Below are positions 3,342 through 4,349 of a stretch of 37,465 nucleotides of DNA, one piece after another. The stretch is from Verrucomicrobiota bacterium (GTDB taxonomy: Bacteria; Verrucomicrobiota; Verrucomicrobiia; Palsa-1439): NCBI GenBank assembly GCA_003152315.1, contig PLZV01000020.1, positions 34,530 to 71,994 of the forward strand, given 5' to 3'. Under the pieces are notes generated by a model. That model saw only the letters and a program-made list of their open reading frames with translations, did not search any database and was not told the origin of the DNA. Made by a program: the position numbers and the translations under genes. Within the stretch, counting starts at the first letter, position 1; every line of letters begins with the position of its first letter.

Positions 3342-3848
3342 TTACATGCGGCCCCCGCCCCTGATTTTCCTTTTCCCGTGCCAGGCCTGCATGGCCAGCG
3401 CAAGTTTCTGGCGATGCTCTTCCGAAAATGCGCGCTTGGGTTTTCTGGACACCGAAGAGGTCACCACAACCCTCGCATTCGCAGGGTCGTCAGGACTGCC
3501 GTGCATCACATGGGTCTTCCATTCACCATAATGCCGGTCCTGCCATTCCGTCACAGCCCGTTTCCAACCAATATCATGGCCCCTCTTCTCGCTTTCGATC
3601 CACTTGTAGCTTTCGATTTCCTGTTGCTGGGACCAGAGGATTTCGAACAAGGGATGCAGGATACCTTGGTCACGAAGAGCGCGCTTCCAGGTCACGAAAT
3701 ATCTCTGTCCCCATTCCTCGCTGGCGCGCTTCCAGCCGATGTCCTGACCTGCCTTCTCGCTTTCGATCCAACGATATCTTTCAATCTCCTCTCGCTGCGA
3801 CCGAATCAATTCAGCGAGAGGGTTTCTGTTTTCTAATCTGTCCTTCAT
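3342..3848 (-). CDS. Hypothetical protein with tandem 38-residue repeats and basic NUMOD3-like tail
   Basis: I cannot name this 168-aa protein. It contains two copies of a 38-residue unit (18-55 and 74-111), spaced by 56 residues and about 63% identical. Each copy has the core WIESEK-G-DIGWKRA and a later EW...W. The units are helical and rich in W, E and K. The C-terminus (135-161) is strongly basic and contains FSEEHRQKLALAMQAW, which resembles the NUMOD3-type DNA-binding helix of homing-endonuclease and phage proteins. That resemblance is from memory only. CCTCCTT at 3858-3864 (AAGGAGG on the coding strand), 9 bases from the ATG, gives a near-ideal Shine-Dalgarno. This strand is chosen over the long open frame opposite because of the repeats and this site. 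Confidence 0.7.
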   Translation of the reverse strand: MKDRLENRNPLAELIRSQREEIERYRWIESEKAGQDIGWKRASEEWGQRYFVTWKRALRDQGILHPLFEILWSQQQEIESYKWIESEKRGHDIGWKRAVTEWQDRHYGEWKTHVMHGSPDDPANARVVVTSSVSRKPKRAFSEEHRQKLALAMQAWHGKRKIRGGGRM

Positions 3849-3865: not shown

Positions 3866-4055
3866 AAGGGCTGCAGCAGGTTTCTGTTTAGCAAGAAATA
3901 AACCGTACTTCATGCGACCGTACGCACCACACTATGCAGGTACTTCAAGGTGAATCGGTTACAACACGGCATCTTTTCTGAAAACACCTGATGCGCCGCC
4001 CTTGACCTGTTTGCTTCTGTCCAAGGTGTGTAAAACAATCACAAGAGGAGACACG
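3866..4055. other. Intergenic region between divergent small genes
   Basis: This is the upstream half of a 500-base stretch between the 168-aa gene and mscS. No ORF with a ribosome site is seen before 4056. TTGACC at 4002-4007 could be a -35 element, but the only plausible -10 (TAAAAC, 4031) is 23 bases away, too far. Direct copies of CCGTAC occur near 3904 and 3920. Nothing else is recognised. Confidence 0.4.
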
Positions 4056-4207
4056 ATGGACCTTCTGAACGCGAAGCGTCAGTCACTTGCAAATACCCAG
4101 GACTTGGTCGATAGTAGCTCGTGAGACTGCAGGCGCAGTCACCTGTGGTTCAGCAAATTGTTGCTCTTCAGCGTGAGATCGTTCTTTTAAGACGTTATCT
4201 TGATTAG
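4056..4207 (+). CDS. Two tiny coupled ORFs (22 and 28 codons), possibly one frameshifted 50-aa gene
   Basis: ATG 4056 has AGAGGAG five bases upstream and opens a 22-aa ORF (MDLLNAKRQSLANTQDLVDSSS) ending at TGA 4122-4124. GTG 4121-4123 overlaps that stop as GTGA and opens a 28-aa ORF ending at TAG 4205-4207. Its product (VRLQAQSPVVQQIVALQREI, then VLLRRYLD) looks like an amphipathic helix. Either these are two coupled microproteins, or one 50-aa protein lost a base near 4115-4121. I do not recognise either part. A hairpin GACTGC/GCAGTC (4125-4140) lies just after the first stop. The strong ribosome site supports translation. Confidence 0.4.
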
Positions 4208-4289
4208 GGCGCAGCCGTAAGGGAAAAGGCATGAAACAAACCAAAAATGCCCCGTTCACGACTCGGTGAAATCACCTGCGGCTGCGCTC
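4207..4289 (+). ncRNA. Candidate three-way-junction structured RNA
   Basis: An outer stem pairs 4207-4217 with 4279-4289 (11 pairs, one G-U; core GCGCAGCCG/CGGCTGCGC). Inside it are GGCAT (4228-4232) with ATGCC (4247-4251), and TTCAC (4255-4259) with GTGAA (4266-4270). It begins at the stop codon of the tiny ORFs and ends 60 bases before mscS, which is read from the other strand. The strand of the RNA is not fixed by the sequence. It could be a riboregulator, a processing site or part of a repeat; I match it to no known family. Confidence 0.35.
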
Positions 4290-4349
4290 CTTCTTTGAGG
4301 TTCGTCCCTTCAGAAAGCCTGCCAGCACAGCCAGAAACAGACTCCGGGT

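Follow-up and report, generated by a model that had tools for sequence, protein, structure and literature searches.

Whether a gap of about 500 nucleotides between two genes of a soil verrucomicrobium specifies a protein, an RNA or both is the question raised by this locus. Within the window, as the whole stretch of 37,465 nucleotides analysed here is called (contig PLZV01000020.1, positions 34,530 to 71,994), the gap is flanked by the genes of a 168-aa DUF4032-type protein and of an MscS-type channel, both on the opposite strand. The layout reported by the first-pass annotation is borne out by the sequence in all its parts: a 22-aa ORF (ORF1, 4056–4124, plus strand, MDLLNAKRQSLANTQDLVDSSS followed by the stop) with GAGGAGA upstream, a 28-aa ORF (ORF2, 4121–4207, plus strand) that begins at the GTG of a GTGA overlap, and a stem of 11 pairs with two hairpins inside it; the region is otherwise gene-free, no other ORF of note being present between 3849 and 4349. 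The DUF4032-type neighbour (3342–3848, minus strand) contains two imperfect repeats (RSQREEIERYRWIESEKAGQDIGWKRA...), gives a weak DUF4032 match and is conserved in the sister genome G002.

The annotation had envisaged a leader-peptide regulator, a microprotein accompanied by a regulatory RNA, or a frameshifted 50-aa gene, and to these coding interpretations we attach almost no credence. They draw on the SD-like site, the GTGA coupling and the open frames themselves; however, at the orthologous site of G002 the ATG of ORF1 is GCG, 12 codons of this ORF are changed, 11 of them nonsynonymously and a single one synonymously, and ORF2 meets a TGA after 6 codons in addition to indels and a frameshift. 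With start lost and frame broken in the sister genome, neither ORF is therefore a conserved gene; the microprotein and the 50-aa gene fall on this account, and the joined ORF1+ORF2 peptide has no Pfam match. Moreover, a BLAST search of the own genome (G000) returned 13 matches, the window copy itself included, the other 12 all being confined to the RNA element, so that none of these copies carries ORF sequence. When the 501-nt intergenic region is shuffled, 25% of the sequences contain an ATG ORF of 20 aa or more with an SD-like site in front, and 3% contain such an ORF together with a coupled second one; the ORF pair alone is mildly unusual, and the tiny ORFs are probably chance open frames.

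It is the RNA element downstream of the ORFs that recurs. Its core, a three-way junction, occupies positions 4207–4289 of the plus strand (covariance-model match 4201–4294, 78–82 bits) and is closed by an outer stem of 11 bp formed by the 5′ arm GGGCGCAGCCG (4207–4217) and the 3′ arm CGGCTGCGCTC (4279–4289), G4207 being at once the final nucleotide of the ORF2 stop codon and the first base of the stem. The outer stem encloses hairpin 1 (4228–4251), in which GGCAT and ATGCC (4228–4232/4247–4251) are joined by an A-rich loop (AACAACAA), and hairpin 2 (4254–4271; GTTCAC-GACTCG-GTGAAA), paired between 4255–4259 and 4266–4270, which is the near-invariant signature of the family, its hexaloop GACTCG included. 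The isolated element folds with a z of −3.7, none of 200 shuffled sequences being as stable, and the fold lies far beyond chance because it recurs.

Covariation indicates that this fold is under selection. Over 36 distinct aligned rows, two of which are spurious antisense rows, 94.8% of the cells are paired, nine pairs display double changes and 25 cells are changed on both sides as opposed to 6.5 in shuffles; on four of five measures none of 500 shuffles attains the value of the real alignment, and on the fifth 1 of 500 does. When the antisense rows are removed and hairpin 1 is included, the double changes amount to 12 pairs (6.7 expected) and 38 cells (15.5 expected), and no shuffle out of 500 reaches the observed value on any of the five measures in this alignment, which was fitted to the structure and is hence biased towards it. 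Compensatory changes affect 8 of the 11 pairs of the outer stem, as illustrated by the variants GAGCGCAGCCG/CGGCTGCGCTC, GAGCGCGACCG/CGGTCGCGCTC, GAGCTCAGCCG/CGGCTGAGCTC and GGGTGCAGTCG/CGACTGCACCC; the stem of hairpin 1 likewise varies with compensation, aligning less well (60% of the cells paired). Since the non-canonical pairs of the sense strand comprise 40 G-U as against 19 A-C, the sense strand is most likely the one that folds.

The covariance-model search of 4207–4289 proposed in the annotation recovered a family. At E<1e-3 the model R1 yields 18 copies in the own genome, two congeners contributing 9 and 7, and at least 33 copies are strong in the three available genomes of this one genus, 16 of them in the own genome, where exact matches to the core TTCACGACTCGGTGAA are present at 13 places; each of the three genomes is divided into many contigs, and the genome-wide statistics derive from extracted loci. 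Applied to 54 further genomes from the same family and class, this model detected 0 copies, under strict filters through which weak copies in distant genomes may be missed, and a second model including hairpin 1 detected 0 in the eight other family members. The annotation had matched the layout to no known system, and this holds: no Rfam 15 family scores above its curated gathering cut-off, a permissive search yielding one irrelevant match of 8.5 bits, and a literature search of partial coverage returned no published verrucomicrobial 3′ element of this kind. A phage or plasmid origin was rejected, the phage and plasmid records being without a match to the element, the one exact core match in viral contigs ending at the hairpin borders and the matches in non-verrucomicrobial genomes being likewise limited to the hairpin. 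Judged from these searches, the element is a so far undescribed, dispersed sequence of ~85 nt restricted to a genus of soil Verrucomicrobia.

All seven strong copies of G002 are orthologous to copies of G000. The seven element pairs, for which orthology is backed by synteny at six loci plus the window site, are 81–96% identical (pooled 88%), the window copy lying at the same place in G002 with 89% identity over the element, whereas fourfold-degenerate sites, as measured in two neighbouring genes, are only 62–66% identical. Furthermore, the orthologous pair L049/L068 displays a compensatory change from T-A to C-G. The comparison thus points to purifying selection on the element at orthologous sites. 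As to conservation in relatives, then, the pairing is retained, with covariation across the copies, and the reading frame is not; of the proposed microprotein and regulatory RNA only the latter stands, upheld by conserved pairing, covariation and the many copies.

The spacer upstream of the window copy (4001–4206, plus strand) is 73–76% identical to G002, that is slightly above the neutral level, so that a longer transcript is possible; the spacer may be the 5′ portion of such a transcript, under weak constraint, or a remnant. The window copy could accordingly be regarded as a free-standing small RNA gene having its promoter at ~4000–4055 and the element as its 3′ end, and perhaps acting in trans, for instance as a decoy that would capture the factor bound by the mRNA copies. 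The mild conservation of the spacer, the orphan position between two neighbours on the other strand and the occupancy of the same site in G002 agree with this possibility, which we nevertheless consider quite improbable, no promoter-like match having been found at the window site and orphans being possibly also leftovers of deleted genes.

Out of 33 copies, 23 start no more than 40 nt past the stop of an ORF of 200 aa or longer on the same strand, compared with a background of 2.1% for strand-positions drawn at random from 158 kb of these genomes; the corresponding binomial p of ~1e-31 is too small, the copies being partly paralogous, and overstates their independence because genes and element share descent, paralogy thus accounting for part of the association with genes. 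Four further copies (L049, L051, L052 and L075) lie 85–200 nt behind a long same-strand gene, and L042, which is excluded from the 33, is separated from such a gene by 207 nt. Element and upstream gene share the strand almost throughout. Its normal place downstream of a gene makes this a 3′ element rather than a leader, and the leader-peptide regulator fails on this ground as well as on the broken ORFs.

The upstream genes almost always encode exported or surface proteins: long repeat proteins with an RYYRVR C-terminus, ending in ‘..PSRYYRVRVLVP’, PEP-CTERM proteins (recognised at L051 from the C-terminal sequence and at L052 by a score exceeding the TIGR02595 cut-off), GloVer repeat proteins and prepilin-type H-X9-DG proteins, as at L049/L068. 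An MdoH-like glucosyltransferase is one exception, and 5 or 6 copies have no obvious exported gene upstream, among them the window copy, which is an orphan. The own genome contains ~80 RYYRVR-type C-termini, about a dozen with the element and ~65 without, and degraded traces of the element are visible by eye behind some of the latter. Given these ~65 paralogues devoid of it, genes of that class do not depend on the element, which marks a subset of the RYYRVR genes and several unrelated families. As a separate observation, these ~80 genes share the C-terminal end ‘..GGATNxPARYYRVRLVP’, to which no NCBIfam entry matched in the examples scanned and which may be a domain for surface sorting or anchoring that has yet to be described.

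A GC-rich stem placed behind stop codons suggests an intrinsic terminator, and the element could be an elaborate one, inherited and copied along with a paralogous surface-protein gene family. The outer stem of 11–13 bp right after the stop codons and the runs of 5–7 U directly past it in L053, L068, L073, L075 and L078 would fit this explanation. Most copies, however, have only a loose pyrimidine tail (runs of five or more U occur in 5 of the 33), a simple terminator scan found no terminator at the window copy, and at L050/L072 the RBS and ATG of a prepilin gene follow directly behind the element in both species, so that a new promoter could not be accommodated ahead of that gene. Unlike an ordinary terminator, moreover, the element has nested hairpins and invariant sequence, and termination could do without an invariant 16-nt inner hairpin, its hexaloop and a second hairpin; the paralogue L123, which lacks the element, has an ordinary strong hairpin in its place. 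A terminator is consequently possible but rather doubtful. Two related candidates were discarded: a terminator of the MscS gene, which ends toward the element, by reason of a minus-strand tail that is not U-rich, and stop-codon readthrough into a second C-terminus downstream, striking in L044, the frame not being kept in other copies. In most copies a stop lies before or inside the element, and the frame of the gene is not open through it.

Several loci offer hints as to how the element has spread. In L041 and L042 it lies between two C-terminal coding ends that belong to one protein family; in these two and in L043, L044, L058 and L064 a second, degenerate C-terminal end (‘..TNFPARYYRVRLVP’ and stop) lies 15–75 nt 3′ of it, as if an old 3′ end had been displaced by a new one made up of codons, stop and element. 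At the L052/L070 locus the interspecies homology begins at the left edge of the element, before which G002 has one extra gene; in L140/L141 (G000:C53, G002:C24) a whole RYYRAR-type gene, absent in G000, lies in G002 between the PEP-CTERM gene and the element, and the right breakpoint coincides with the element's left edge. The flanking C-terminal ends and the L052/L070 breakpoint suggest dispersal by recombination of gene 3′ ends; no empty site was seen in the three genomes.

The element might instead be miniature mobile DNA of the MITE, REPIN or ERIC type, its fold being conserved as the recognition site of a transposase or recombinase and its position explained by target choice. The dispersed copies include a recently similar subgroup (L041–L046), L043, L044, L058 and L064 retain displaced C-terminal remnants, and Y1-type transposases are encoded in the own genome. 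The outer stem is an inverted repeat, yet it varies by compensation, and direct-repeat flanks are limited to L041, L042 and L073 (G001:C93:8909-9002), the last having an imperfect 73-nt repeat of different sequence on both sides. On the other hand, conservation well above neutral of all seven strong G002 copies at orthologous sites, compensatory changes included, is hard to fit with neutral remains of a mobile element, the strand matches that of the upstream gene nearly always, and the four Y1 transposase loci tested have no flanking copy. We regard mobile DNA as an unlikely explanation.

REPs and REPINs are 20–40 bp long, bear a terminal GTAG/CGTC tetranucleotide tag and are associated with RAYTs (PMC3733652). 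The present element shares with them the nature of an extragenic palindrome close to stop codons but is ~85 nt long and lacks the tag that marks REPs (PMC3733652); a RAYT/REPIN identity was dismissed because of the missing tag and because none of the four Y1_Tnp loci tested contains the element. NEMIS/Correia elements of Neisseria are transcribed stem-loops proposed to control neighbouring mRNAs via RNase III and are counted among the MITEs with IS-like termini (PMC2229807); neither such termini nor target-site duplications were seen in the copies analysed here. ERIC/IRU and Yersinia palindromic repeats are ~100 nt long, dispersed, highly base-paired and co-transcribed with the upstream gene, ERIC having an orientation-dependent effect on the stability of the upstream mRNA (PMC2229807). 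Like ERIC, the element is a dispersed, highly base-paired repeat; it differs in belonging to a lineage unrelated to the enterobacteria, in its conserved three-way junction and near-invariant inner hairpin, in lying nearly always directly behind exported-protein genes and in being conserved at orthologous sites. By analogy, the best reading is that of an element comparable to ERIC or NEMIS in behaviour and unrelated in sequence. Integron attC sites also fold directly behind the stop codon of an ORF, with RYYYAAC...GTTRRRY ends and in cassette arrays; the element has neither these ends nor an array and is conserved at its centre instead of its ends, so that an attC site was excluded.

Given that family, fold, strand, place after stop codons and purifying selection are established by the comparison of sequences, the role that we favour, with somewhat better than even confidence, is that of a dispersed, genus-specific, transcribed cis-acting 3′-UTR element of mRNAs for exported and surface proteins, of which the window copy is an orphan. 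The element would be transcribed with the upstream gene and act in cis at the 3′ end of the mRNA, where decay from the 3′ side would be blocked by the GC-rich outer stem, which in copies followed by a U-rich tail would also contribute to transcription termination. The near-invariance of the inner hairpin GUUCACGACUCGGUGAAC suggests a trans-acting reader, putatively an RNA-binding protein, an RNase or an sRNA, through which the surface-protein mRNAs would be controlled together. An Hfq-dependent ARN-loop RNA was ruled out, the own genome (95.8% complete) giving no PF17209 match while the controls were positive; the reader, if any, should therefore be another factor. The window copy would have lost its upstream gene, or never had one, and would persist in two species as an orphan and possible small RNA.

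Extended further, the 3′-UTR element could belong to a genus-wide post-transcriptional surface regulon comprising the hairpin, a dedicated trans factor and orphan sRNA decoys and spread by 3′-end swapping, a speculation to which we give a low probability. If true, the regulon would mark mRNAs of unrelated exported families (repeat proteins, PEP-CTERM proteins and pseudopilins), the swapped unit consisting of C-terminal codons, stop and element. To our knowledge, structured 3′-UTR elements common to unrelated bacterial genes have rarely been described, and RNA regulation in Verrucomicrobia has been little studied. An element that covaries, is retained at the same sites in different species and tags the genes of surface proteins may illustrate how a dispersed repeat can turn into the shared regulatory end of a set of genes in this phylum, and its 16-nt near-invariant hairpin offers a concrete handle for finding the factor that would read it.

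Finally, a different palindrome (CGCTCGTGGCGAGnAGCACTCGCGACGA) splits hairpin 1 in two copies, L079 (G001:C32:69419-69547) and L059 (G000:C45:26796-26882); it may be an additional repeat of REP-like type that has inserted there.
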